Positions 4,141-18,636 of a DNA stretch of 64,000 nucleotides are shown piece after piece. Where the stretch lies: NCBI RefSeq assembly GCF_008729015.1, contig NZ_RKSM01000003.1, positions 372,001 to 436,000 of the forward strand, given 5' to 3'. This DNA is from Haloarcula sp. CBA1129. GTDB lineage: Archaea; Halobacteriota; Halobacteria; Halobacteriales; Haloarculaceae. The translations under genes were made by a program, and so were the position numbers. Positions within the stretch are counted from its first letter, which is position 1. Every line of letters begins with the position of its first letter. A model generated the notes under the pieces. The model worked only from the letters and a program-made list of their open reading frames with translations, did no database searches and was not told the origin of the DNA.

Positions 4141-5325
4141 ATGTGGGACGTACAGATGCCAGACCCAGTCATCGCGTCGGTCGGTGCCTCGCCGCTCGGT
4201 CGCACGGACCTCCCGGGCCGCGACCTGTTTTCGGTCGCTCTTGCGGAGGCGTTCGACGAACTGCCCGACCCTGCCGAGATCGTCGAGGCAGTGTACGTCG
4301 GCAACCAGTCGGAGACCTATGAACACCAGATCATGCAGGGGACGCTGCTGGCCGAGTGGGCCGGCCTCCGTCATGTGCCCGCCGAGCGGGTCGAAGGATG
4401 CGCGGCCGCGGGCGCGCTCGCGCTACGGCACGCAGTCAAGGATGTCCGCAACGGCGAACACGAGGCCGTACTCGCGTGCGGCGTCGAAAAAATGACATCC
4501 GCAGGCACGAGCGGCGCGACGGATGCACTGTCGGCGGCGTTTGACCGTGCCATCGAGCAACGCTCCGGCATCACCGCGCCGAGCCAGTACGCACTGCTCG
4601 GCCAGCGCTACCTCCACGAGACTGACGCCACGGAGCGCGACCTCGCCGAGATCGCGGTGAAGAACCACGCCAATGCCGCTCGCAACCCACGGGCACAGTT
4701 TCCAAAGGAGATCGACGTCGAGACGGTCATGGAATCTGACCCCGTCGCCCCACCGCTGAAGCTCTTCGACTGTGCGCCGGTCGGAGACGGCGCTGCGACC
4801 GTCCTCGTGACGACCGCCGAGCTGGCGGCTGACCTCGACCAGCCACAAGTTCGCGTCGCGGGCAGCGGGGCCTCCGCGAACAACATCGCAGTCGCCGAAC
4901 GGGACATGACCGACATCGCAGGTGCTCGGAATGCCGCCGAGACGGCCTACGAGGAAGCGGGCATCGACGCCGCGGCCGTCGACATCGCGGAGGTCCACGA
5001 CGCATTCACCGTCTGCGAGGCGCTGCTTGCGGAGGCCGCCGGCTTCGCCCCCAAGGGAGCGGGCTATCAGAGCTACCGGCCGCCAGCGGAGCGGGCTGAC
5101 GGCTGGACGGACGTGCAGTTGAGCCCGAGCGGCGGTCTGAAGGCCCGCGGTCACCCCATCGGCGCGACCGGGCTCTTGCAGGCGCTCGAAGCCTACGAAC
5201 AGCTCACGGGGGCCGCAGGCGACCGGGCGGTCGAAGGTGCCGAGACGGCCCTGTTGCTCAACGAAGGAGGCGTCGCGGACGCGGTTACCGTTGGCCACGT
5301 GCTCACGACGGCGGAGGCACAATGA
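4141..5325 (+). CDS. Thiolase-family acyl-CoA acetyltransferase
   Basis: Thiolase-fold enzyme, 394 aa, of the archaeal/SCPx-like class that works with an OB-fold partner. The likely nucleophilic Cys is in VEGCAAAGALA (near residue 84), and the active-site His is in GHPIGATG (near residue 338). It either condenses acetyl-CoA or cleaves 3-ketoacyl-CoA; direction cannot be told from sequence. The stop overlaps the start of the DUF35 Zn-ribbon gene by four bases (ATGA), which is the usual arrangement for this thiolase class. An alternative ATG lies at 4156. The upstream sequence has a TATA-like AT-rich stretch about 25-40 bases before the ATG, suggesting a short-leader or leaderless transcript. 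Confidence 0.88.
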   Translation: MWDVQMPDPVIASVGASPLGRTDLPGRDLFSVALAEAFDELPDPAEIVEAVYVGNQSETYEHQIMQGTLLAEWAGLRHVPAERVEGCAAAGALALRHAVKDVRNGEHEAVLACGVEKMTSAGTSGATDALSAAFDRAIEQRSGITAPSQYALLGQRYLHETDATERDLAEIAVKNHANAARNPRAQFPKEIDVETVMESDPVAPPLKLFDCAPVGDGAATVLVTTAELAADLDQPQVRVAGSGASANNIAVAERDMTDIAGARNAAETAYEEAGIDAAAVDIAEVHDAFTVCEALLAEAAGFAPKGAGYQSYRPPAERADGWTDVQLSPSGGLKARGHPIGATGLLQALEAYEQLTGAAGDRAVEGAETALLLNEGGVADAVTVGHVLTTAEAQ

Positions 5326-5753
5326 CTGACAGTCCCCTCGATACGACCGACCCGCGGACACTGCCGGGCTTCTTCGATGCCCTCGCTGATGGCGAACTTC
5401 TGGGTGGGGTCTGTACGGACTGTGGACAGGTCCTGTTGCCGCCGCGGCCGGCCTGCTACGCCTGTGGCAGTCGGGCTGTCGATGTTGAACCACAGTCCAC
5501 CGAAGGCCAGATCTTCTCGTACACGGCAGTCCACACGCCACCGCCGGCGTTCGCGGCGGACGCGCCCTACACGGTCGCCGTCGTGGAACTCTCGGACGGT
5601 GGCCGCCTGCTTGGCCGCGTGGCCGCCGACTATGCCGATGTCGCTATCGGTGACGAGGTCGAGCTCACGGTACGGGAGCCGACGGCTACAGAGCGTGAAA
5701 TTGCGCTCGACTACGAGAGCGACTGGCCGGTCCACGTCTTCGAACCCCGGTGA
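5322..5753 (+). CDS. DUF35 Zn-ribbon/OB-fold acyl-CoA-binding protein
   Basis: Small accessory protein of 143 aa. The N-terminal half has a rubredoxin-like zinc ribbon with two pairs of cysteines (CTDC and CYAC, residues about 31-49). The C-terminal half is an OB-fold with the typical SYTAVHTPPPAF strand. In archaeal thiolase complexes this family (ChsH2-like, DUF35) bridges the thiolase and a partner enzyme and helps channel acyl-CoA. Overlap with the thiolase gene just upstream supports a thiolase-DUF35 complex. It has no catalytic motif of its own. Confidence 0.85.
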   Translation: MTDSPLDTTDPRTLPGFFDALADGELLGGVCTDCGQVLLPPRPACYACGSRAVDVEPQSTEGQIFSYTAVHTPPPAFAADAPYTVAVVELSDGGRLLGRVAADYADVAIGDEVELTVREPTATEREIALDYESDWPVHVFEPR

Positions 5754-5938: not shown

Positions 5939-6028
5939 AGAACGGATGGTTGTGATTGTCTGAGTCGATTCTGTGGCAGGGAAGGAGTAGATGTCAGTCT
6001 CAGAAGCTGTAACAGGACTGGCTTCACA

Positions 6029-6055
6029 CCCCCACCCCACTGGTTCCGCTGTTAG
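6029..6055 (-). repeat. Origin-recognition-box-like repeat 1 (inverted)
   Basis: Read on the minus strand it contains CTAACAGCGGAACCAGTGGG followed by more G residues. It is the only copy upstream of orc1 in this orientation, so it forms the left arm of an inverted pair with the boxes from 6226 onwards. The terminal G tract matches the G-string described for haloarchaeal origin boxes. Confidence 0.8.
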
Positions 6056-6225
6056 GAGATAAATAGACGGCACCACCCCCATGTGAGGGGGTGCTTTGCT
6101 ATACTGTGGTAACGTGCTACGGTTCTGGTTTTTTGCCGACACACTTGAACTTATTCACTAGCTCTAGAAATATTCTGCCCGTAGTTCGGATTGCAGTCCG
6201 AATGCATCCCCACCGACTCTCAGTC

Positions 6226-6252
6226 CTAACAGCGGAACCAGTGGGGTGGGGG
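6226..6252 (+). repeat. Origin-recognition-box-like repeat 2
   Basis: Plus-strand copy, essentially identical to the box at 6029-6055 in inverse orientation, about 170 bp away. The pair with its AT-richer interior is the best candidate for the duplex-unwinding region. Confidence 0.8.
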
Positions 6253-6462
6253 TATGCGTATCCCCCATCCCATATGGTGTACTCTGTTTCGACAATTCAC
6301 GGCAGAGATACTGGGAGCAGGAGATACCAGAGTCATGACCGCTCTATGGGATAAACTCGCTCTAACAGTGGCAGTGAACACCCTCGCAGTTACAATCCGA
6401 GATACTCGACCTACGCAGACGGGAGAAACGGCACGCTCTCTTAGCCTATTCTCGTTTTCTCG

Positions 6463-6490
6463 CCTAACAGCGGAAGTGGTGGGGTGGGTG
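6463..6490 (+). repeat. Origin-recognition-box-like repeat 3
   Basis: Plus-strand copy with core CTAACAGCGGAAGTGGTGGG. An inverted half copy (TTCCGCTGTT) lies about 20 bp downstream at 6511-6520. Confidence 0.75.
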
Positions 6491-6578
6491 TGGTCGGTTC
6501 ACCGCTGAAATTCCGCTGTTCAACCACTCAGCGTTATCGGGTTCCGGTCCTCGAAGAAGGCACTTCTTGGCGACCGTG

Positions 6579-6607
6579 CTAACAGCGGAAGTAGTGGGGT
6601 GGGGGAG
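6579..6607 (+). repeat. Origin-recognition-box-like repeat 4
   Basis: Plus-strand copy with core CTAACAGCGGAAGTAGTGGG followed by GTGGGGG. Part of a cluster of three boxes that leads into the orc1 promoter. Confidence 0.75.
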
Positions 6608-6633
6608 TAGTCAACAAGGTGTTCCACCACTCA

Positions 6634-6660
6634 CCTAACAGCGGAAGTACCGGGGTTGGG
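6634..6660 (+). repeat. Origin-recognition-box-like repeat 5
   Basis: Plus-strand copy with core CCTAACAGCGGAAGTACCGG and a slightly degenerate G tract. It lies directly upstream of a TATA-like sequence (TTTATATA, 6663-6670), so Orc binding here could also repress orc1. Confidence 0.7.
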
Positions 6661-6677
6661 CATTTATATACTTAGTC

Positions 6678-6704
6678 GAACAGCGGAAGCAGCGGAACCA
6701 AAGG
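6678..6704 (+). repeat. Degenerate origin-box-like repeat 6
   Basis: Contains ACAGCGGAAGCAGCGGAACC, two overlapping cores without the long G tract. It lies between the TATA-like sequence and the orc1 start and may be an autoregulatory site rather than an origin box. Confidence 0.5.
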
Positions 6705-6735
6705 TTAAGACAGTTCGTGTTGCAACTACATACAA

Positions 6736-7923
6736 ATGAGCGACATTACGTTTTCGCCGACCTCCACAATATTCGAACAACGCGAGGCACTACTCGAAGA
6801 GTGGACCCCTGAGGAGCTTGTCGGGCGTGACGAGGAGCTCCAGAAGTATCACGCTGCTCTTCAGCCAGTCATCAACGACGAAACCCCGTCAAACATCTTT
6901 CTGTACGGGAAAAGCGGCGTCGGAAAGACTGCTGCCACCCGGTACCTGCTCTCCGCTTTGGAACGTGATGCAGCAGATGTTGACGGGCTGGACCTCAGTA
7001 CGGTCGAAGTCAACTGTGATGGTCTCAATTCGAGCTATCAGGCCGCGGTCGCAATCGTCAACACACTTCGTGACCCGGCGAATCAAATCTCCAACACCGG
7101 ATATCCACAGGCTTCAGTGTACCAATTCCTTTTCGACGCACTCGATGATCTGGGCGGAACGGTACTTATTGTTCTTGACGAGGTCGATCACATCGAAGAC
7201 GATTCGCTGCTGTACAAACTTCCCCGCGCCAGATCGAACGGTGATATCTCCGAGGCGAAGCTGGGTGTCATCGGTATCTCGAACGACCTCGATTTCCGCA
7301 ACCAACTGTCCTCGAAAGTCCGGTCGAGCCTCTGTGAAAAGGAAGTGTCGTTTTCGGCCTACAACGCCAATGAGCTACAGCTCGTGCTGAAACAGCGTGA
7401 GGCCGTCGCGTTTCAGGACGATGTTCTCGATGACGGTGTCATAGAAATGTGTGCTGCGTACGGTGCGAAAGACTCCGGGGACGCCCGTCAGGCTCTGGAT
7501 CTCCTGCTTGAAGCTGGTGACCTTGCGCGAGAGTATGACGATGAACTCGTCACTGAACACCACGTACGCGAAGCCCGGCAACGACTTCAAACTGATCAGG
7601 TCGTCGAGGGCATTCGTAACTACTCTGATCACGGGCAACTCGTTCTCTATGCACTCACTGGGCTCGCCGAAGACAATGACACCCCAGCTCGGACACGGGA
7701 TATTCTGGGCGCGTATCAGGAACTAGCGCGTGATGAGGGTCTGGACCCGGTTTCAGAGCGGTCGGTCCGTGACTATCTCGGTGAACTCACACAGCTTGGA
7801 ATCGTGTCCTCAACGGAGTACAACCGGGGGAAAGGCGGTGGGAAGTACAAGGAATTCGAGCTAGAGCAATCCATCAGCTCAATCAAAACGGGCCTGTCAG
7901 AACTCCTGAAAAAAAGTCCGTGA
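6736..7923 (+). CDS. orc1/cdc6: Orc1/Cdc6-type replication initiator
   Basis: Origin-recognition AAA+ ATPase, 395 aa, the usual length. Walker A is GKSGVGKT (residues 58-65), Walker B VLIVLDEVD (about 143-151), and sensor 1 is VIGISND (about 178-184). A lid domain with the GDARQALDLL sensor-2 region (near residue 250) precedes a C-terminal winged helix (about 300-390) that binds DNA. The protein should bind the repeats on both sides of its gene, open the DNA and recruit MCM. The start ATG is preceded by a TATA-like element at 6663-6670. Repeats 7 and 8 begin within the stop codon. Haloarchaea usually have several Orc paralogues, each tied to its own origin, so this one probably serves only this origin. 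Confidence 0.95.
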   Translation: MSDITFSPTSTIFEQREALLEEWTPEELVGRDEELQKYHAALQPVINDETPSNIFLYGKSGVGKTAATRYLLSALERDAADVDGLDLSTVEVNCDGLNSSYQAAVAIVNTLRDPANQISNTGYPQASVYQFLFDALDDLGGTVLIVLDEVDHIEDDSLLYKLPRARSNGDISEAKLGVIGISNDLDFRNQLSSKVRSSLCEKEVSFSAYNANELQLVLKQREAVAFQDDVLDDGVIEMCAAYGAKDSGDARQALDLLLEAGDLAREYDDELVTEHHVREARQRLQTDQVVEGIRNYSDHGQLVLYALTGLAEDNDTPARTRDILGAYQELARDEGLDPVSERSVRDYLGELTQLGIVSSTEYNRGKGGGKYKEFELEQSISSIKTGLSELLKKSP

Positions 7924-7944
7924 CCCCACCGGTTCCGCTGTTAG
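7923..7944 (-). repeat. Origin-recognition-box-like repeat 7
   Basis: Minus-strand copy (core CTAACAGCGGAACCGGTGGG) starting in the stop codon of orc1. It faces the plus-strand boxes upstream, so the whole gene is bracketed by boxes in opposite orientation. Confidence 0.75.
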
Positions 7945-7945
7945 C

Positions 7946-7968
7946 CACCCCACTGGTTCCGCTGTTAG
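7946..7968 (-). repeat. Origin-recognition-box-like repeat 8
   Basis: Second minus-strand copy (core CTAACAGCGGAACCAGTGGG), in direct tandem with repeat 7 at a 23-bp period. Nothing else is recognised between here and 8187. Confidence 0.75.
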
Positions 7969-8187
7969 CACGTCCAGACGGTTGCGTCGTCGATGGCAAA
8001 CAGCCGAAAAGCCCGGCCACCAGCGAACGTTCCGCCCGAATTCGTCTGCTCACGCTCAAGTCTGATGAGGGTATCAAACTGTGACCGAGACGCACGAATC
8101 GGTGCAAGGATGTCCCGACGACGGTACATATATGCCAGTGGAACAAGAGGTTGCTAAGAGCATCAGCAAAACAACTGAGGGCAGGTA

Positions 8188-8682
8188 ATGTCGAGCCACT
8201 ACATCACGTCAGCAGACCATCTCCCCGAGGAAGCACAGACAGAAACCACACTGCAGATCACAGATGCCCAGACGAAACGCATTTTCGAGGCACGCGTTCG
8301 GATTTCCCGGGACCCTGATGCACTCACTGACCCGGAACCGCTAACAATCGTCGCCGGGCCACACGAGAGCGTCAGCGAGACCAGATACGTCGAATTGCTC
8401 GATGAGACTGCTGCGACCGGTATCGATCAAGAGCTCGTGGCACATCTGGCGGCCGAACAGGAGACGGCGTCGAATATCCTCAATACTCGGTCCGACGATC
8501 TGAAGGTTCTCTTGCAGTATCTCGTCGAGACTGGCGAGTACGAGTCAACGTCCGATGCGCTTCGCGAGATCGCGTTCGACCACCTCGCCACAGAACGCCC
8601 GGCTCTACTTGACACCTACGCGGAGGTCCGCCACGACCTCGATGACGACCCACTCAGGCGCGTACTCGAAAAACGAGAGTGA
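8188..8682 (+). CDS. Uncharacterised 164-aa protein heading the UbiD operon
   Basis: I do not recognise this protein. It is acidic, has no signal peptide or membrane segment and no cysteines. Residues about 105-135 (KVLLQYLVETGEYESTSDALREIAF) resemble the strand-helix-helix pattern of ribbon-helix-helix DNA-binding proteins, but the match is weak and placed in the C-terminal half rather than at the N-terminus. Its stop lies three bases before the start of the first UbiD-family gene, so the two are very likely co-transcribed. It could be a regulator of the operon or a small partner of the decarboxylase. The coding frame is supported by haloarchaeal codon use and the tight spacing. Confidence 0.7.
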   Translation: MSSHYITSADHLPEEAQTETTLQITDAQTKRIFEARVRISRDPDALTDPEPLTIVAGPHESVSETRYVELLDETAATGIDQELVAHLAAEQETASNILNTRSDDLKVLLQYLVETGEYESTSDALREIAFDHLATERPALLDTYAEVRHDLDDDPLRRVLEKRE

Positions 8683-8685
8683 CAG

Positions 8686-10191
8686 ATGTCCGTTAATTCG
8701 CTCCGTGCGTACCTCGATTTGCTCGACACGACCGGCTGGCTCCGGTCGTTTGACCAGCCGGTGTCGTGGGATCTTGAAGCAAGTGCAGCGACGATGCTCG
8801 CCAATATCCGCGACGGCCCGATTCCGGTGTTCGAGTCTATTGCAGGGACAGAGATGGCGGCAAAACTGGTTGGCGACCCGTATCGCGGCCCCCAGACTCG
8901 CCCTTGGGATCACTTCGCGCAAGCGCTGGGACTCCCGAGTGGCCTATCAGGTCGTACGTACTACGACCGAGTGATCGAGCGCCTCAACGCGCCGCAAGCG
9001 CCCCGAACTGTTGCGAGTCACAAGGCCCCCTGTAAAGAGACAGTGCGGACGGGAAGCGAGGTCGACCTCTTGTCGTTCCCGTGGCCATATATTCACGAAG
9101 GCGACGGGGGGCGGTACTCGAACCATCACACCATCGTCGCTCCGGACCCCGACACGGAGTGGGGAACTTGGTCGAGTCATCGAATGATGATCCACGACAG
9201 CTCTCAGGCCAGTCTGTTGTTACTAGCCGGTGAGCAGGTTCCGAACCGCTACTACTACGACTACGAGCCCCGGGGCGAACCGATGCCAGTCGCGGTCGTC
9301 ATCGGTGCGGAACCCACCGCCGAGTGCACTGCAGACATGTGGATTCCGACAGGTCGGAGCGAAGCGGCCTTCGCGGGCGGCCTGAAAAACGCGCCTGTGG
9401 ACCTTGTCCAGTGTGAAACCAGTGATCTGTACGTCCCGGCGACGGCCGAGCTAGTTCTCGAAGGGCACGTTCGACCCGACGACCGCCTCGATGAGGGACC
9501 GTTCGGCGACTACTTCGGCTACATGAACGGCCCGCGACGTTCGATGCCGGTGTTCGAAGTCGATGCGATTACCCACCGCCACGAACCGCGGATACCGTTT
9601 TGCGTCGAGGGGAGCGGTGTCGGATACGGGCAAAACTCGACCAGTACGCTCCGGCTCGTCGCAGCCGGTCCCGACGCGACTGTCGGCCTCCGGGCCGCCG
9701 GATTCGACGTTTCGATGGCGGTCCCGTGGCGATTCACCTCCCGCACCGTCTGGGTCATCGCGACGGATCGACCGTATCCGGGCTATCTCCACGAACTGGC
9801 GAACTTTATCTTCACGACGTGGGGGATGCTCCACATCGACTTTTTCGTGTTTGTCGACGCTGCTGTCGACCCGCTCGACCCGCGGGCAGTCCTGACAGCG
9901 ATCGCGCTTGAGGCCGACCCGGACGACGACTTCCATCAATTCGGCGTCGAGCGGATGCCGAAAGTTCCGCTCAACATCTACCAGACGCCGGACGAGAAGG
10001 GCAGCGCGGATGTGGGTACTTCGAAGGCAAAGACGGCCAAAGCCTACATTGACGCAACGACTGACGGCGACGCACCCGACATGACGGCGACCACAGAAAC
10101 CCGGAAGAAAGCGCAGGAGCGGCTAGTCGATGCGGGACTAGACGCTGCACGGTTCGACCGGCTTGACGAGCGGGAGGGGCAATCACAGTGA
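8686..10191 (+). CDS. UbiD-family (de)carboxylase, catalytic type
   Basis: UbiD-fold enzyme of 501 aa, a family that uses prenylated FMN to decarboxylate or carboxylate aromatic and alpha,beta-unsaturated acids. The signature EGPFGDYFGYM lies at about residues 270-280; its Glu and the following acidic residue belong to the catalytic Glu-Arg-Glu/Asp network. The preceding GRSEAAFAGGLKNAPVDLV region (about residues 225-243) and the C-terminal metal-associated region are also present, so it looks active. No ubiX prenyltransferase gene is in the window, so the cofactor must come from elsewhere. Its stop overlaps the start of a divergent UbiD paralogue by four bases, which suggests a two-component enzyme. 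Substrate unknown; respiratory-quinone synthesis is possible but less likely amid catabolic genes. Confidence 0.88.
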   Translation: MSVNSLRAYLDLLDTTGWLRSFDQPVSWDLEASAATMLANIRDGPIPVFESIAGTEMAAKLVGDPYRGPQTRPWDHFAQALGLPSGLSGRTYYDRVIERLNAPQAPRTVASHKAPCKETVRTGSEVDLLSFPWPYIHEGDGGRYSNHHTIVAPDPDTEWGTWSSHRMMIHDSSQASLLLLAGEQVPNRYYYDYEPRGEPMPVAVVIGAEPTAECTADMWIPTGRSEAAFAGGLKNAPVDLVQCETSDLYVPATAELVLEGHVRPDDRLDEGPFGDYFGYMNGPRRSMPVFEVDAITHRHEPRIPFCVEGSGVGYGQNSTSTLRLVAAGPDATVGLRAAGFDVSMAVPWRFTSRTVWVIATDRPYPGYLHELANFIFTTWGMLHIDFFVFVDAAVDPLDPRAVLTAIALEADPDDDFHQFGVERMPKVPLNIYQTPDEKGSADVGTSKAKTAKAYIDATTDGDAPDMTATTETRKKAQERLVDAGLDAARFDRLDEREGQSQ

Positions 10192-11558
10192 TCCCGTTCA
10201 CGCAGTACGTCCGTGGACTGGCCGGCGACGATGACCTCGTCCGACTCGACGGCCCATTCGAGGTCCCGGTTGACGTGCTGGCGGCGGAGGCGCTGCGCGC
10301 GAGTGGACCGGCACTTCGGTTCCAGCGTCCCACAGGTATCGACCTCGTTAGCGGCGTGTTCAGCGGACCGGACCAGACGCAGCAGCGTGAGGCCCGGCCG
10401 TGGTCGCGGCTGTCGCTCGGCCTCGGACTTGACCCGGAAGCCACGCTTGTCGACCTGCTAGAGACAATCAGCACCCTCGGCCCGACCGGCGGGACTGCGG
10501 AGCCGACATACACTGGGCAAGCAGCCTCGGCGACAGACATCGACGTACAGGACCTGCAGTTCCCACAGAGCGAAACGGACACGTGGCCCGCGGTGACGCT
10601 TGGTGTTGCATCGGTTTCGACCGCTGACGGCACACACTGGGGGCCGGTCCACGGTTCGGTCGTAGGCGGCGACAAGCTCAGGGTGCGTGTTCCAGACGCG
10701 CTGTCGTCGCTTGTCGCTGAGGGGACCACAATAACGATAGCACTCGGCGTGCCGCCGGCGGCGATCACGACGGCATACCTGCTTGCTGTCACTGACCAAA
10801 CTGCCACGCCGATCCAGTCCTGTGGGGTGACCGGAACCGTCCCGCTCGTTCCGACCAACGGCGGACTCGTCCCGAGCGCGACGGAAGTCGTCATGGAGAC
10901 GACGGTTGTGGACCGCCAGCCCGACTTTCGCTCCGACCGCCGAGAGGGCTGGGAGTACGTTGTCGAGAGCGGCCCGCTCTCGCTGTCGGTCGAGCGCGTC
11001 CGCACAACTGAAACCCCGGTTATCCCTCTCTCACCAGTCGGTCGCCCGCTCGCAGATGATCTCCGGCTCACGGGGTTAGCGACGGCCGCATCCCTGTACC
11101 ACCGGCTCAACAACTACTGGGGCATCTCGCCGGTCGAATGGCTGATGCTGCCGGCAGAGGCGGAACTCGGGATCTGTTTCGTGGCCAGTGACGTGCTTTA
11201 CGGCGGCTTCGAGTGGCAACTCGCGAATATCCTCTTTTCATTCTCGTCGCTGTTCGACACGGTCGTTATCGTCGACGAAGACGTTCCGCCACAGGACTTC
11301 GGCCGCGTTCTGGCCGACCTCTGGCTGAAATCGCACCCCGCTCGCGACTGGGTGTTCAGCGAGCCAGATGCACCGGCAGCGACACGGCCTCACTACCGAC
11401 GGGACAACGAAACCGGCTCGCGCCTGTACGTGAACTCGGCATGGGACCCACGCTGGAAGGAAACGTATATCGCGCCGCGAGTCACGTTCGAGAACTCCTT
11501 CCCGAGCGGCGTCCGCGACGTGGCTCGTGTCCTGTGGGATGAGCCCGACACTGCTTGA
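10188..11558 (+). CDS. Divergent UbiD-family protein, probable non-catalytic partner
   Basis: A 456-aa protein with the overall layout of UbiD proteins (N-terminal domain, HWGPVHGSVV segment near residue 150, a VPLVPTNGGLVPSATEVVMETTV stretch near residue 220, and a C-terminal domain). The EGPFGD-type catalytic motif is missing: the corresponding place reads DRREGWEYVVESG (near residue 247). It starts with GTG inside the stop region of the canonical UbiD gene, so production is coupled. Known multi-subunit UbiD enzymes such as phenylphosphate carboxylase contain paralogous subunits; a heteromer of active and inactive copies is my inference. Alternatively the protein could have a different activity. 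Family assignment is moderate, loss of motif is directly visible. Confidence 0.7.
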   Translation: MIPFTQYVRGLAGDDDLVRLDGPFEVPVDVLAAEALRASGPALRFQRPTGIDLVSGVFSGPDQTQQREARPWSRLSLGLGLDPEATLVDLLETISTLGPTGGTAEPTYTGQAASATDIDVQDLQFPQSETDTWPAVTLGVASVSTADGTHWGPVHGSVVGGDKLRVRVPDALSSLVAEGTTITIALGVPPAAITTAYLLAVTDQTATPIQSCGVTGTVPLVPTNGGLVPSATEVVMETTVVDRQPDFRSDRREGWEYVVESGPLSLSVERVRTTETPVIPLSPVGRPLADDLRLTGLATAASLYHRLNNYWGISPVEWLMLPAEAELGICFVASDVLYGGFEWQLANILFSFSSLFDTVVIVDEDVPPQDFGRVLADLWLKSHPARDWVFSEPDAPAATRPHYRRDNETGSRLYVNSAWDPRWKETYIAPRVTFENSFPSGVRDVARVLWDEPDTA

Positions 11559-11771: not shown

Positions 11772-13454
11772 ATGGTGACCAGCCACAACCTCCCGGACTA
11801 CGACACAGCGCGGAACGAATTCTCTTGGGACGATATTTACGCGGACGCGGACTGGGACGCACCGAACGACCTGAACATCGGGCACGAAGTTGCTGACAGA
11901 CACGCGACTGACCGGGGACAGGTCGCGCTCTATCAGGTCGGGACCGACGGAGAGCTGTCGAAGATGACGTTCTGGGAGCTTGCTGACCGCTCAAGCCAGT
12001 TCGCCAATGTCCTTGACGATCTCGGGGTTGCACAGGGCGACCGGGTCTTTTCGTATATGCCCCGAATCCCCGAGCACTACGTGGCACTGGTCGGAACACT
12101 CAAACACGGTGCTGTCTGGGGAAGCGTTAACGAGCGGTTCGGCCCCGATGGAATCTCGTACCGTCTCGACGACTGCGACGCGAAGGTAGTCGTCACCACC
12201 ACTGACAATCGCGACACAGTCGAAGCTGCACTGGACGACGCGCCTGCGGTCGAACACGTGATTACTGTTGACCGTGGCGGTGGCGCGCCCGCTGACGACG
12301 TGGTTTTCAGTACCGCGCTCGACGGCGCGACCACGGCGTACGATGTCGCTGAGACCAGCGGAGAGGACGATGCGCTGCTGTACTACACCTCGGGGACGAC
12401 CGGGCTGGCCAAAGGCGTCCTCCACAAACAGCGCTGGATCGCCGGTGTCGCGGCAACACAGAAGTACGCCGTTGACCTGCAAGACGGCGACCTGTACTGG
12501 TCGACCGGTGACCTCGGCTGGCTGACGGGTGCCATCAACACGCTCGGCGCTTGGTTCTGGGGTGCGTCGCTGTTCACCTACGAGGGCGAGTTCGATACCG
12601 ACGAGTGGGCCGACCTACTTGATGAATACCCGATCAGCGTCCTGTTCTCGGTCCCGACAGCGTACCGGATGCTCCGTGAAAACGACGAGGTGCTTGACGA
12701 TGTCGACCTCGATTTGCGTCATGCGCTTTCTATCGGCGAACCGCTCAGTGCCGGCGTTGTTGAGTGGGGCGAGGACAAACTCGGTGTCACGATTCTCGAC
12801 ACGTACGGCCAGACTGAGACTGGCAACATGATCATCAACAACTACCCGACAATGGAGCTCCGTCCCGGGTCGATGGGGAAACCACTCCCCGGAATCGAGG
12901 CCGATATCGTCGACCCGCAAACAGGTGACGTTCTGGAACCCGGTGAGACGGGCGAAATCGCTCAGCGTGGCGACTACCCGTGTTTCTTCGCCGAGTTCTG
13001 GAACAAACCAGAAAAGACCCAGCGGGCGTTCGTCGAGGGGCAAGACGGGACATGGTATCTCTCAGGAGACCTTGCACACAAAGACGAAGACGGCTACTTC
13101 TGGTTCGAGGGGCGGGCAGACGACGTGATCCTCTCCTCTGGCTACCGCATCGGGCCGTTCGAAGTCGAGAGTTCGCTGGGCGAACACGACGCGGTCGCCG
13201 AGGCGGCGGTCGTTCCCAAACCACATCAAGAGCGGGGGAACATCGTCAAGGCCTACGTCGTGCCAAGCGAAGACGCTGAGCCGTCCGACCCCCTCAAAGA
13301 GGACATCCAGAACTACGTGAAAAACGAACTCTCAGCCCACGAGTACCCGCGCGAAATCGAATTCCGTGAGGAACTCCCCAAGACTGTGACCGGGAAAATT
13401 CGACGGACAGAACTCCACGACGACGCCGAAGCAGAAGCCGAAGTCGAGACCTGA
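11772..13454 (+). CDS. AMP-forming acyl-CoA synthetase
   Basis: ANL-superfamily acid-CoA ligase, 560 aa, which activates a carboxylic acid with ATP to acyl-AMP and then acyl-CoA. The phosphate-binding loop YYTSGTTGLAKG is near residue 205, the A5 motif TYGQTETG near residue 344, the SGDLAHKDEDGYFWFEGRADD hinge near residue 435, and the catalytic Lys in PKTVTGKIRR near residue 540. The sequence resembles medium/short-chain and acetyl-CoA synthetase-like ligases. It heads a run of genes for acyl-CoA dehydrogenase, carboxylase and hydratase, so a branched short-chain acid such as isovalerate is a reasonable substrate guess. A TATA-like element and a palindromic operator candidate precede it. Confidence 0.9.
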   Translation: MVTSHNLPDYDTARNEFSWDDIYADADWDAPNDLNIGHEVADRHATDRGQVALYQVGTDGELSKMTFWELADRSSQFANVLDDLGVAQGDRVFSYMPRIPEHYVALVGTLKHGAVWGSVNERFGPDGISYRLDDCDAKVVVTTTDNRDTVEAALDDAPAVEHVITVDRGGGAPADDVVFSTALDGATTAYDVAETSGEDDALLYYTSGTTGLAKGVLHKQRWIAGVAATQKYAVDLQDGDLYWSTGDLGWLTGAINTLGAWFWGASLFTYEGEFDTDEWADLLDEYPISVLFSVPTAYRMLRENDEVLDDVDLDLRHALSIGEPLSAGVVEWGEDKLGVTILDTYGQTETGNMIINNYPTMELRPGSMGKPLPGIEADIVDPQTGDVLEPGETGEIAQRGDYPCFFAEFWNKPEKTQRAFVEGQDGTWYLSGDLAHKDEDGYFWFEGRADDVILSSGYRIGPFEVESSLGEHDAVAEAAVVPKPHQERGNIVKAYVVPSEDAEPSDPLKEDIQNYVKNELSAHEYPREIEFREELPKTVTGKIRRTELHDDAEAEAEVET

Positions 13455-13499: not shown

Positions 13500-14666
13500 A
13501 TGAATTTCGAATCCACTGAGGAACGTTCGATGATTCGGTCGACCGCAGCGGACGTGGCGGCCGAGTTCGGCCCGGAGTACTGGCGCGAAAAAGAAGAGGC
13601 AGGCGAGTTCGGACAGGAATTCTGGGACGAACTGGCCGAAGCCGGCTTCCACGGATTGCTGGTCCCGCCGGAGTACGAGGGGGCCGGTATGGGCATTCAG
13701 GAGATGGGGCTGGTCATGGAGACGCTCTGTGCCGAAGGCTGTGGCATGGCGGGCACTTGGTATCTGGTGCTCACTGCCGGTATGGCCGCCGTCGGTATCA
13801 GGGAGGACGGGACAGAAGAGCAAAAGCAGACCTACCTGCCGGACATCGCCAACGGCAAACGGAACTTCTCTATCGGCATCACAGAGCCCGAGGCCGGGAC
13901 AAACACGCTAAACGTCGCGACTCGCGCCGAGAAAGACGGCGACGAGTACGTCCTGAACGGGAACAAGGCATGGATCACCTTCGCGGACCGGGCTGACAAC
14001 ATGATTCTCGTCACGCGCACGACCCCACGCGACGAGGTCGAGCGCGGGACTGACGGCATAAGCCTGTTTATCGTCGATATGGACGATCCCGGCATCGACG
14101 TGTCGCCGATTCCCAAACACGGGATCAACTACTCGAAGTCCTGTGAGGTCTTCATCGAGGACGTCCGGGTCCCCGAGGAAAACTTGCTTGGCGAGGAAGA
14201 CGACGGCTGGTGGACCCTTGTCGATATGCTGAACCCGGAACGCATCGGCTTTGCGGCTGCCGGAACCGGCATCGGCAAACTAGCCGCCGACACTGCTATC
14301 GAGTATGCTAGCGACCGAGAGGTGTTCGGCGCGCCCGTTGGGAGTCATCAGGCGGTTTCGTTCCCGATCACCAAGGCGTACGCCCGCATGGAAACGGCGG
14401 CGCTCATGCGTGAGAAGGCGTCTTGGCTCTACGATCAGGGCGAGGAGTGTGGGTACGAGACAAACGTCGCGAAGGCGACGGCCGTCAGTGCTGGCATCGA
14501 AGCGGTCAAGCAATCGATGCAAGCATTCGGCGGCTGGGGCTATGCGAAGGAGTACGATGTCGAGCGGTGGTGGCGTGAAATCAACCTGACGCGGCTGGCC
14601 CCGGTCTCCCAGCAGATGGCATACAACCACATCGGGCAGCATCTCGGTTTCCCCAGATCCTACTAA
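13500..14666 (+). CDS. Acyl-CoA dehydrogenase, isovaleryl-CoA-dehydrogenase-like
   Basis: FAD-dependent acyl-CoA dehydrogenase of 388 aa, full length. It has the usual [12 protein letters not shown]/substrate segment (near residue 125) and the [19 protein letters not shown] region (near residue 275). The common catalytic Glu near the C-terminus (YEGT) is absent; that place reads [11 protein letters not shown]. Instead a Glu is present in [12 protein letters not shown] (near residue 246), the site of the catalytic base in isovaleryl-CoA and long-chain acyl-CoA dehydrogenases. With a biotin carboxylase downstream this favours isovaleryl-CoA to 3-methylcrotonyl-CoA. Its stop shares a base with the next start (TAATG). 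Electrons would go to ETF, not encoded here. Confidence 0.88.
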
Positions 14667-16447
14667 TGTTCGAGAAAGTCCTTGTCGCAAACCGCGGCGA
14701 AATCGCGGTCCGTGTGATGGCTGCGTGTGAAGAGCTGGGTATCGAGACGGTCGCCGTCTACAGCGACGCCGACCGCAACGCTGGCCACGTCGAGTACGCC
14801 GACGACGCATACAACATCGGTCCAGCACCCGCAAGTGAGTCGTACCTCGACCAGACAGCGATCCTCGATGTCGCTGAGCGATCCGGGGCCGATGCAATCC
14901 ATCCCGGGTACGGCTTCCTCGCGGAGAACGCCGCGTTCGCTACCCGCGTCGAGGCCACCGATGGGGTCACGTGGGTCGGCCCGCCAAGCGACGCGATGGA
15001 GACGCTAGGGGAAAAGACAAAGGCCCGGACAGTGATGCAGGAGGCCGGTGTCCCAGTCGTCCCCGGCACGACGGACCTCGTCAGTGAGCCTGACGAGGTA
15101 CGCGAACTGGGTGCAGAGTACGGCTATCCTATCGCGATAAAGGCAGAGGGTGGCGGAGGCGGTCGCGGCATGAAGATCGTCCGGAGCGAGGCTGAGGTTG
15201 CGGAGGCGCTCAAGAGCGCGAAGCGCGAGGGCGAAGCGTACTTCGGCAATGACTCGGTGTACGTCGAAAAGTACCTCGAAGCTCCGAAACACGTCGAAGT
15301 GCAGGTACTTGCAGACGAACACGGTAACGTCCGTCACCTTGGAGAACGTGACTGCTCGCTGCAGCGCCGCCACCAGAAGGTCATCGAAGAAGCCCCGAGC
15401 CCGGCACTTGATGCCGACCTGCGTGCGGAAATCGGCGAAGCCGCCAGACGCGGAGTCAGTGAAGCCGGCTATACGAACGCCGGGACAGTGGAGTTCCTCG
15501 TTGAAGACGGGGAGTTCTACTTCATGGAGGTGAACACCCGAATTCAGGTCGAACACACCGTCACCGAGGCTGTGACGGGCATCGATATCGTTCGCTGGCA
15601 GCTCCGGGTTGCCGCGGGCGAGCAACTGGACTTCACACAGGACGACGTGTCGATAGACGGCCACGCCGTCGAGTACCGGATCAACGCGGAGAACCCTGCC
15701 GAGGACTTCGCGCCGACGCCGGGACCGCTGACGACGTACGCGCCGCCAAGCAGTATCGGTGTTCGTCTCGACCACGCGGTCACACAGGGCGATGATATCG
15801 GTGGAGACTACGATTCGATGATCGCGAAACTGATCGTCGCTGGCGAGGACCGGGACCACTGCCTCGCTCGGTCGAGGCGTGCCCTCGGCCATTTCACGGT
15901 CGAGGGTGTCCATACGACGATTCCGTTCCATCGGTTGATGCTCGACGACGACACCTTCATCGCCGGGACGCACACAACGAAATACCTCGACCAAGAACTC
16001 GACGACGAGGCGCTTGACACAGCCGTTTCGCGGTGGGGGACCGAGGAGGTCGGGAGCGACTCCTTGTCGGCATCGACGGATGAAATCGCTGTTGAGGTCG
16101 ACGGGAGACGCTTCGATGTCGTCGTCACAGATGGCCTCCCCCGTGCATCGCGCGGTGGAAACGCCAGTGGCGGCTCCGGCGGTGGTACTGCCGGCGGCGC
16201 ATCCGGTGGCGGCACAGCGGACGTGGCCACGGCGGGTGCGATTACGGCTGAGATGCAGGGAACCATTCTCTCGACCGAAGTCACAGCCGGTGACGATATC
16301 GCTGCTGGCGATGTCGTCTGCGTGCTGGAGGCGATGAAAATGGAAAACGACGTGGTGGCGTCCACGGGCGGAACCGTCGCGTCCGTTCCGGTCGCAGAGG
16401 GCGATTCTGTAGACATGGGCGACACGCTGGTTGTATTAGAGGAGTGA
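14666..16447 (+). CDS. Acyl-CoA carboxylase biotin carboxylase/BCCP subunit
   Basis: Alpha subunit of a biotin-dependent acyl-CoA carboxylase, 593 aa. Residues 1-445 form the ATP-grasp biotin carboxylase (start [16 protein letters not shown], glycine-rich GGGGGRGMK near residue 165, [14 protein letters not shown] near residue 290). A Gly/Ser/Ala-rich linker follows (about 493-525), then a biotinyl domain with EAMKMEN; the lysine to be biotinylated is near residue 558. It carboxylates biotin with ATP and bicarbonate and hands it to the carboxyltransferase encoded next, overlapping by a few bases at most. Next to an isovaleryl-CoA-dehydrogenase-like gene the complex is most likely a methylcrotonyl-CoA carboxylase, although acetyl/propionyl-CoA carboxylase remains possible. 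Confidence 0.92.
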
Positions 16448-16449
16448 GT

Positions 16450-18168
16450 ATGCAAGTCAGAATATCAGACGACGCGACCGAATCGGAAGCACAGGCCATT
16501 GCCGAAGCACTCGCGGCGCATTTCGAGGACGACGTCACTCTCGTCGTTGACAGCGGCGAAGCGGTCGGCAGTGCCACGTACGACGGCAACGGACGGGCCG
16601 AATCCACGGAACCGGTCGACGACGACCTCGGCCCGACCGAACGGGAGGAAACGCTGCGCAAGGAGATTGAAAAGATTCTGGAAGGCGGGCCGGAAAAATA
16701 TAAAGAACAGTTGCCAGAGGAGGGCAAGCTGTTCGTCCGGGACCGCATTGATCTGTGGTTCGGTGATGAGTTCCTGTTCGAGGACGGGAAGTTTGCGGAG
16801 TTCGACGCCGACGACCAGCTCCCCGCTGACGGACTCATCACAGGGGCCGCGGAGTTCGAGGGCCGTGACCTGCATTTCATGGCCAACGACTACACGGTCA
16901 AACGCGGCAGCATGGCCGCCAAAGGTGTCGAGAAGTTCCTTCGGATGCAACAGCGGGCGCTGAAAACCGGGCGGCCGGTGCTGTACCTGATGGACTCCTC
17001 GGGAGGCCGTATCGACCAACAGACCGGCTTTTTCGCCAATCGCGAGGGTATCGGGAAGTACTACTACAACCACTCGATGCTTTCCGGACGAGTCCCACAA
17101 ATCTGTGTCCTCTATGGGCCGTGTATCGCCGGCGCAGCGTACACGCCTGTCTTCGCGGACTTCACAGTCATGGTTCGGGATATGAGCGCAATGGCTATCG
17201 CCAGCCCCCGGATGGTCGAAATGGTCACCGGCGAAGAAATCAGCCTCGAAGACCTCGGTGGCCCTGACGTCCACGCACAGCACTCCGGCAGTGCAGATCT
17301 CATCGCCGACGACGAGGAACACGCCCGGGAACTCGTCGCCCAACTCATCAGCTATCTGCCCGACAACGCCGACGAAGACCCGCCCCAGACCAGCGGGACG
17401 GCCCCGAAGCGGTCGCCGGAGGGCATCGACGCCGTTGTCCCGGACAAGCCGAACAAAGGCTACGACATGTTCGACGTGATTGAGCGGGTCGTCGACGCCG
17501 GGTCGACGCTCGAACTCCGACCGGAGTACGGCAAAGAGATCATCACGTCGTTTGCCCGGATCGACGGCCGGCCAATCGGGGTCATCGCAAACCAGCCAGC
17601 CCAGCGCGCGGGGGCTATCTTCCCGGACGCGGCGGAGAAAGCCGCTCAGTTCATCTGGACCTGCGACGCCTACAACATCCCGCTATTGTACCTCTGTGAT
17701 ACGCCGGGATTCATGGCTGGCTCGGGGGTTGAGAAAGAAGGCATCCTCGAACAGGGCAAGAAGATGATCTACGCCACGTCCTCGGCGACAGTACCCAAAC
17801 AATCTGTCGTGGTGCGGAAAGCATACGGTGCGGGTATCTACGCGATGTCCGGCCCTGCCTACGACCCCGAGTCGACAATCGGCCTGCCGAGCGGCGAAAT
17901 CGCGATCATGGGGCCGGAAGCGGCTATCAACGCCGTCTACGCCCGCAAGCTCTCCGAGATCGACGACGAGGATGAACGACAGCAAAAGGAGCAGGAACTC
18001 CGCGAAGCCTACCGCGAGGATATCGACATTCATCGAATGGCAAGCGAAGTCGTCGTTGATGACATCGTTCCGCCCAGCGACCTCAGAACGGAACTGACGA
18101 ACCGGTTTGCGTTCTACGAGACCGTCGAGAAAGACCTCCCGGACAAGAAACACGGCACCATCCTCTGA
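16450..18168 (+). CDS. Acyl-CoA carboxylase carboxyltransferase subunit with N-terminal extension
   Basis: Beta subunit of the biotin-dependent carboxylase, 572 aa. The two crotonase-type carboxyltransferase halves start near residue 65. The N half has MDSSGGRIDQQTGFFANREGI and the oxyanion-hole region GPCIAGAAYTPVFADF; the C half has GVIANQPAQRAGAIF and CDTPGFMAGSGVEKEGIL. The first 60 residues (ISDDATESEAQAIAEALAAHF and on) are not part of a normal carboxyltransferase. They resemble the small third subunit (PccX/AccX or epsilon type) found as a separate short protein in haloarchaeal and actinobacterial carboxylases. I chose the ATG at 16450; a GTG at 16444 would add two residues. The ASPRMVEMVTGEEISLEDLGG stretch resembles methylcrotonyl-CoA carboxylase more than propionyl-CoA carboxylase. 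Confidence 0.9.
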   Translation: MQVRISDDATESEAQAIAEALAAHFEDDVTLVVDSGEAVGSATYDGNGRAESTEPVDDDLGPTEREETLRKEIEKILEGGPEKYKEQLPEEGKLFVRDRIDLWFGDEFLFEDGKFAEFDADDQLPADGLITGAAEFEGRDLHFMANDYTVKRGSMAAKGVEKFLRMQQRALKTGRPVLYLMDSSGGRIDQQTGFFANREGIGKYYYNHSMLSGRVPQICVLYGPCIAGAAYTPVFADFTVMVRDMSAMAIASPRMVEMVTGEEISLEDLGGPDVHAQHSGSADLIADDEEHARELVAQLISYLPDNADEDPPQTSGTAPKRSPEGIDAVVPDKPNKGYDMFDVIERVVDAGSTLELRPEYGKEIITSFARIDGRPIGVIANQPAQRAGAIFPDAAEKAAQFIWTCDAYNIPLLYLCDTPGFMAGSGVEKEGILEQGKKMIYATSSATVPKQSVVVRKAYGAGIYAMSGPAYDPESTIGLPSGEIAIMGPEAAINAVYARKLSEIDDEDERQQKEQELREAYREDIDIHRMASEVVVDDIVPPSDLRTELTNRFAFYETVEKDLPDKKHGTIL

Positions 18169-18171
18169 GCT

Positions 18172-18636
18172 ATGACAGGACGCTACTACGAAGAGTTCGA
18201 GGTCGGCGAGACCATCGAACACGAGAAGCGCCGCACGATCAGCGAGCGCGACAATCAGCAGTTCTGCGATATGACGATGAACCAGCAGCCGCTTCATCTC
18301 GACGCCGAGTTCGCAGCCGAGACGGAGTTCGGCGAGCGACTGGTCAACGGACTCTACACGATGAGTTTAGCTGTCGGGCTGACCATCCCAGAGACAACCG
18401 ACGGAACCATTGTCGCGAATCTCTCCTACGACAGCGTCGAGCACCCGAATCCGGTGTTTCACGGCGACACGATCCGTGTGCAGTCGACCGTGACCGACAA
18501 ACGCGAGACTAGTGACGGTGAACGCGGGATCGTCACGATGCACGTCGAAGTGTTCAAACTCACAGAGACAGACGACACCCTCGTCTGTGAGTTCGACCGC
18601 ACCGTGCTGTCGCTGCGACGCGACAACGCCGAGTGA
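18172..18636 (+). CDS. MaoC-family (R)-enoyl-CoA hydratase
   Basis: Hot-dog-fold hydratase of 154 aa. The start GRYYEEFEVGETIEHEKRRTISERDN and the MNQQPLHLDAEFA motif (near residue 38), which holds the catalytic Asp/His pair position, are typical of MaoC dehydratases of the mesaconyl-CoA hydratase-like branch. It lies three bases after the carboxyltransferase gene, so it belongs to the operon. There it could hydrate the 3-methylglutaconyl-CoA made by a methylcrotonyl-CoA carboxylase, a step done by a crotonase in the classical leucine pathway. That assignment is inference from gene order. Confidence 0.85.
   Translation: MTGRYYEEFEVGETIEHEKRRTISERDNQQFCDMTMNQQPLHLDAEFAAETEFGERLVNGLYTMSLAVGLTIPETTDGTIVANLSYDSVEHPNPVFHGDTIRVQSTVTDKRETSDGERGIVTMHVEVFKLTETDDTLVCEFDRTVLSLRRDNAE

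Follow-up and report, generated by a model that had tools for sequence, protein, structure and literature searches.

Two overlapping genes of Haloarcula sp. CBA1129, here termed P1 and P2, carry the same label, UbiD family decarboxylase, in public database records, raising the question of whether they encode two enzymes or one enzyme accompanied by an inactive paralogue, and on which cofactor such an enzyme would run. UbiX is the prenyl-FMN (prFMN) synthase, and characterised UbiD enzymes are described as dependent on the prFMN that it makes. The genes lie within a 64,000-nucleotide stretch of DNA (the window), and an earlier note, made from the sequence alone, had proposed a hetero-oligomeric prFMN (de)carboxylase with one active-looking and one pseudo-enzyme subunit. 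The reading favoured here, with a probability of roughly 0.6, is that P1, P2 and the product of a third gene, P0, form a hetero-oligomeric UbiD-type (de)carboxylase that contains a structural pseudo-subunit, serves CoA-linked catabolism and uses a cofactor that is non-standard or UbiX-independent.

Table 1. Features of the P0-P1-P2 trio and the genes that follow it, in window coordinates.
Feature	Position	Strand	Basis
P0, 164 aa; predicted N-terminal beta domain and C-terminal ribbon-helix-helix-like domain	8188..8682	+	
P1, UbiD-family subunit, 501 aa	8686..10191	+	Pfam UbiD 219 bits; PDB matches TtnD, HudA, Fdc1
P2, UbiD-fold pseudo-enzyme subunit, 456 aa, GTG start	10188..11558	+	UbiD_C 50 bits; AlphaFold2 model
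GTGA stop/start overlap of P1 and P2, 4 bases	10188..10191	+	Sequence
AMP-forming acyl-CoA ligase	11772..13454	+	Downstream, same direction, conserved neighbourhood
Acyl-CoA dehydrogenase	13500..14666	+	Family match, neighbourhood
Biotin carboxylase / biotin carrier protein of acyl-CoA carboxylase	14666..16447	+	Family match, neighbourhood
Acyl-CoA carboxylase carboxyltransferase subunit	16444..18168	+	Family match, neighbourhood
MaoC-type enoyl-CoA hydratase	18172..18636	+	Neighbourhood

The reading frames of both P1 and P2 are open in the window sequence. P1 reads DEGPFGDYFG where the aligned segment of P2 is DFRSDRREGWEYVVESG, and sequence and alignment confirmed what the earlier note had described: an EGPFGD motif kept in P1 and replaced in P2, in genes that overlap by four bases. 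Searching 84,980 species genomes with conserved P2 peptides, an approach that could miss distant relatives, yielded 66 named loci, all from Halobacteria and all carrying the two genes as a pair; pair loci that were read separately were likewise all paired. The overlap measures 4 bases in 58 of the 66 loci, and translation of P1 and P2 may be coupled through its GTGA sequence. P2 is open and conserved throughout these loci, ruling out a sequencing or frameshift artefact.

Orthologues of P1 are present in 85 of 391 haloarchaeal genomes, P2 in exactly the same 85, and in none of the 391 was P2 found alone, so that the unpaired paralogues named beforehand as evidence against the pairing did not appear. 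Two genomes possess two P1-P2 pairs each, with both genes retained in every pair. Many copies reside on large plasmids; viral contigs contained no relative, and a viral origin was rejected on this basis. Elsewhere in the archaea, a different overlapping pair of UbiD paralogues (L201:3359-6209 and L204:4837-7702), in which EGPFGE is replaced by TNPFGEI in one of the two proteins, is apparently an independent case of pseudo-UbiD pairing.

The three UbiD domains of P1 (N, rift and C) score 39.9, 219.4 and 53.4 bits against Pfam, all above the cut-off. Residues are numbered as in S. cerevisiae Fdc1, with R175, E280 and E285 checked on the PDB sequence. The Arg-Glu-Asp triad (R175, E280 and D285) is present in all 66 aligned P1 orthologues, Glu236, a fourth conserved acid, is invariant, and the EGPFGD/EGPYGD motif is kept by P1 in 66/66 orthologous pairs. 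The same alignment positions in P2 have decayed: R175 is found in 26/66 orthologues, Glu or Asp at position 280 in 43/66 and an acid at position 285 in none, and no P2 orthologue has the complete triad of R175 with an acid at both 280 and 285 (0/66). Alignment of the 66 orthologues also located no triad elsewhere in P2, an outcome that would have spoken against a pseudo-enzyme. Glu236 is lost in every P2 and the metal ligands are gone. Because P1 keeps its motif in all pairs and no P2 has the triad, the loss of the motif from P2 is not a chance event.

P2 has nevertheless remained a member of the family in its fold. In Pfam searches it matches UbiD_C at 50 bits, with borderline N and rift domains (E 0.0036 for the latter); UbiD_C is found in 41/41 P2 homologues, and a profile built from these 41 matches Fdc1, HudA and TtnD at E values of about 1e-21 to 1e-14. 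The AlphaFold2 model of P2 (pTM 0.84) aligns over its full length with UbiD structures (Z 33; TtnD and HudA), which identifies P2 as a UbiD-fold protein and not an unrelated one. The protein has invariant residues of its own, among them Trp-Glu at positions 255-256, directly after the lost motif. Its conservation is uneven: positions with at least 95% identity make up 34/94 of the oligomerisation core, as against 14/194 of the rift domain. The corresponding count for the P1 rift domain is 92/210. Such a pattern is the one expected of a structural partner and would be compatible with assembly, of which it is no proof.

The original proposal of an active and a pseudo-enzyme subunit is partly supported; it overlooked P0, whose gene immediately precedes that of P1 in all of the 66 named loci (with a 4-base overlap in 35) and adjoins it upstream in 39/40 further regions. 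The exception (L039 in genome G212) is a P1-P2 pair without an adjacent P0; that genome has an intact solitary P0 elsewhere, at L220:4475-4981. P0 is present in 20/20 trio genomes examined; 43 haloarchaeal genomes that lack the trio do not have it, nor do two non-haloarchaeal genomes that have the pair. It has no credible family match in Pfam or NCBIfam, and a public record lists this gene as a hypothetical protein. P0 would be a third component dedicated to the system, acting as an accessory subunit or else as a regulator of the ribbon-helix-helix type. That it is merely a DNA-binding autoregulator of the operon, with no part in the enzyme, comes close to an even call. In a model of pTM 0.47, the C-terminal half resembles the ribbon-helix-helix proteins SegB (residues 72-154; Z 6.2, with 75 residues aligned) and ParD (Z 4.5), and the P0 profile retrieves a short CopG-like protein from another archaeon (E 3e-4). 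Against this, a Z score near 6 from such a model is weak, and the conserved N-terminal beta domain, with a GPHE motif invariant in 66/66 sequences, would be needless in a bare ribbon-helix-helix repressor.

UbiX, as defined by the TIGR00421 profile, occurs in 32 of the 391 haloarchaeal genomes, which are exactly the 32 that have an ordinary UbiD and lack the trio, and in 0/85 trio genomes; this avoidance has a Fisher p value of 0.0005 with relatedness ignored. A haloarchaeal UbiX protein used as query gave a best E value of 0.006 in 40 trio genomes; the four positive controls ranged from 1e-44 to 1e-125. In the genome of the window itself, the sole member of the PF02441 flavoprotein family is CoaBC, with no UbiX. 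Technical oversight of UbiX was thereby ruled out in three ways: by the class-wide TIGR00421 search, by PF02441 in the window's own genome and by the protein search with controls.

The metal site of P1 has changed as well. In UbiD enzymes this site (Asn, His/Asp and Glu, with Mn2+) holds the phosphate of prFMN; the published ligands in the A. niger enzyme are N168, H191, E233 and K391 (PMC4947166). Asn170, the Mn/phosphate ligand, is present in 1/66 P1 proteins versus 20/22 ordinary haloarchaeal UbiDs, and the His/Asp ligand position, 193, is always Gln in the 66 orthologues; P1 of the window has Thr at 170 and Gln at 193. The full ligand set is absent from P1 across the 66 orthologues, Glu236 being the only ligand kept throughout. 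With Asn170 lost in 65/66 proteins and Gln at 193, cofactor binding itself looks changed.

Adjacent P1-like and P2-like genes, without P0, were also found in two genomes of other archaea from the same phylum (G593 and G565; loci L215 and L214). In the phylogenetic tree, P1 groups with the outgroup P1-like proteins (support 99/97) and P2 with the outgroup P2-like proteins (100/98), and the two clades are joined to each other, apart from 42 other UbiDs (99/96). The tree shows one old duplication as the source of both lineages, and the presence of the pair outside Halobacteria, taken with it, makes the dead partner older than the haloarchaeal system. The outgroup P2-like proteins are half-decayed, reading EGPFTGAF and EGPYLNFY; as intermediates, these pairs would make the stepwise decay of a pseudo-enzyme subunit traceable. 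Asn170 is retained in both outgroup P1-like proteins, and UbiX is encoded in each of the two genomes. Gln193 was discarded as a mark of UbiX loss, since these P1-like proteins, with UbiX in their genomes, also have Gln. Loss of Asn170, loss of UbiX and gain of P0 appear to go together in Halobacteria, an association that needs confirmation because the outgroup assemblies are fragmented (230-290 contigs), so that their pairs and UbiX could partly be misbinned contigs.

More important than the pairing itself, the haloarchaeal system lives without UbiX, and its flavin cofactor would therefore be either not standard prFMN or made by a novel enzyme. The assumption of prFMN in the original proposal is weakened by host genomes that have no UbiX and by the lost Mn ligand of P1. 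In the literature, no direct report of a UbiX-independent UbiD or of inactive UbiD subunits was found. A UbiD-type lineage may have abandoned the UbiX/prFMN supply, using another flavin or prFMN from a novel synthase, with a dead paralogue and P0 as obligate partners; we hold this evolutionary account at slightly below even odds. An ordinary prFMN enzyme fed by an unrelated, unrecognised flavin prenyltransferase, possibly aided by P0 or P2, is a tentative option. The triad acts beside prFMN, and its invariance in 66/66 P1 proteins, along with that of E236, would favour chemistry of the prFMN type even though UbiX is missing; but the loss of Asn170 and the Gln at 193 fit such an enzyme poorly, and annotation of the neighbour clusters revealed no recognisable prenyltransferase gene. 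Equally tentative is a P1 that binds plain FMN, another flavin or none and performs a different or UbiX-independent chemistry, with P2 and P0 making up for the absent fourth ring. The absence of UbiX from all 85 genomes and the altered metal site are in keeping with it, and a phenylphosphoamidate carboxylase with two UbiD subunits has been reported to function with FMN (PMC7500099), although an enzyme lacking an azomethine-ylide cofactor would not be expected to retain the triad so strictly. On either account, the haloarchaeal enzyme would run with an altered cofactor or with one obtained independently of UbiX. The repeated occurrence of UbiD without UbiX in near-complete genomes, together with the changed metal site, makes the cofactor directly testable.

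The genes around the trio differ between lineages. In Haloarcula, Natrinema and Natrialba it is followed by genes for an acyl-CoA ligase, an acyl-CoA dehydrogenase, a biotin-dependent acyl-CoA carboxylase and a MaoC hydratase (Table 1); in many other lineages it is followed by a metallo-hydrolase (MBL) gene and phenylacetyl-CoA-epoxidase-type (PaaABCDE) genes. Variable as it is, this neighbourhood suggests that aromatic or branched acids are broken down by a CoA-linked route; the MBL and PaaABCDE-type genes found next to many trios are not enough to assign a substrate. Further upstream in the window, positions 4141-5753 hold overlapping genes for an SCP2-type thiolase and an OB-fold/zinc-ribbon partner (ChsH2-like), which together resemble the benzoylsuccinyl-CoA thiolase pair. 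Inverted copies of a 24-38 base repeat (CCACCCCACTGGTTCCGCTGTTAG) lie on either side of an Orc1/Cdc6 gene (6736-7923), and this region (6025-7970), about 220 bases beyond which the trio begins, looks like a haloarchaeal replication origin.

In the proposed enzyme, P1 would carry the active site of the hetero-oligomer, and P2, an old paralogue that kept the UbiD fold and C-terminal oligomerisation domain and lost the cofactor site, would serve as its structural, and probably allosteric, partner. P0 would join as accessory subunit or regulator. The complex would catalyse reversible (de)carboxylation of an aromatic or alpha,beta-unsaturated acid or CoA ester in a CoA-linked catabolic pathway, and in Halobacteria would do so in cells without UbiX. 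The part of the original proposal that set an active beside a pseudo-enzyme subunit is supported, as far as sequence data reach, by the pairing in 85/85 genomes, the conserved oligomerisation domain beside the decayed active-site domain of P2, and the tree; assembly of the two into one oligomer is inferred from these data, and the perfect linkage is also compatible with two proteins that work one after the other. That P2 stands outside the P1 complex as a separate protein of a shared operon, such as a factor for ligand binding or maturation, is improbable. Accessory maturation proteins do exist for other UbiDs, namely LpdD (PMC10865409) and PhdC (PMC13040415), but the UbiD oligomerisation domain is the most conserved part of P2, its gene overlaps P1 by 4 bases in most loci, and the two proteins share an exclusive common ancestor.

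Several known systems resemble the trio in part. Phenylphosphate carboxylase PpcABCD of Thauera aromatica has two UbiD-like subunits and a small subunit of unknown family that is needed for carboxylation (PMC7500099), a composition like that of P1, P2 and P0. However, P1 scores only 146.7 bits against the alpha model (cut-off 564.6) and 101.1 bits against the beta model (cut-off 469), P2 matches neither, no phosphatase delta subunit was seen beside the trio, and the trio host genome has no UbiX. In vanillate decarboxylase VdcCD a UbiD protein likewise depends on an allosteric partner protein (PMC8379154); VdcD, in contrast, is a small zinc-ribbon protein and no UbiD paralogue, and the enzyme was reconstituted with UbiX-made prFMN. 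The naphthalene carboxylase of culture N47 also combines several UbiD-like subunits, four in all, in one large assembly (PMC12016498), but it is an anaerobic bacterial complex of about 750 kDa. The best structural and sequence matches of both P1 and P2 are Fdc1, HudA (PA0254) and TtnD, which differ in being single-gene enzymes with Mn-bound prFMN from UbiX and in having the Asn-His-Glu metal site that is partly missing in P1. P1-P2 offers a clear example of a putative pseudo-enzyme subunit beside an active-looking UbiD paralogue.
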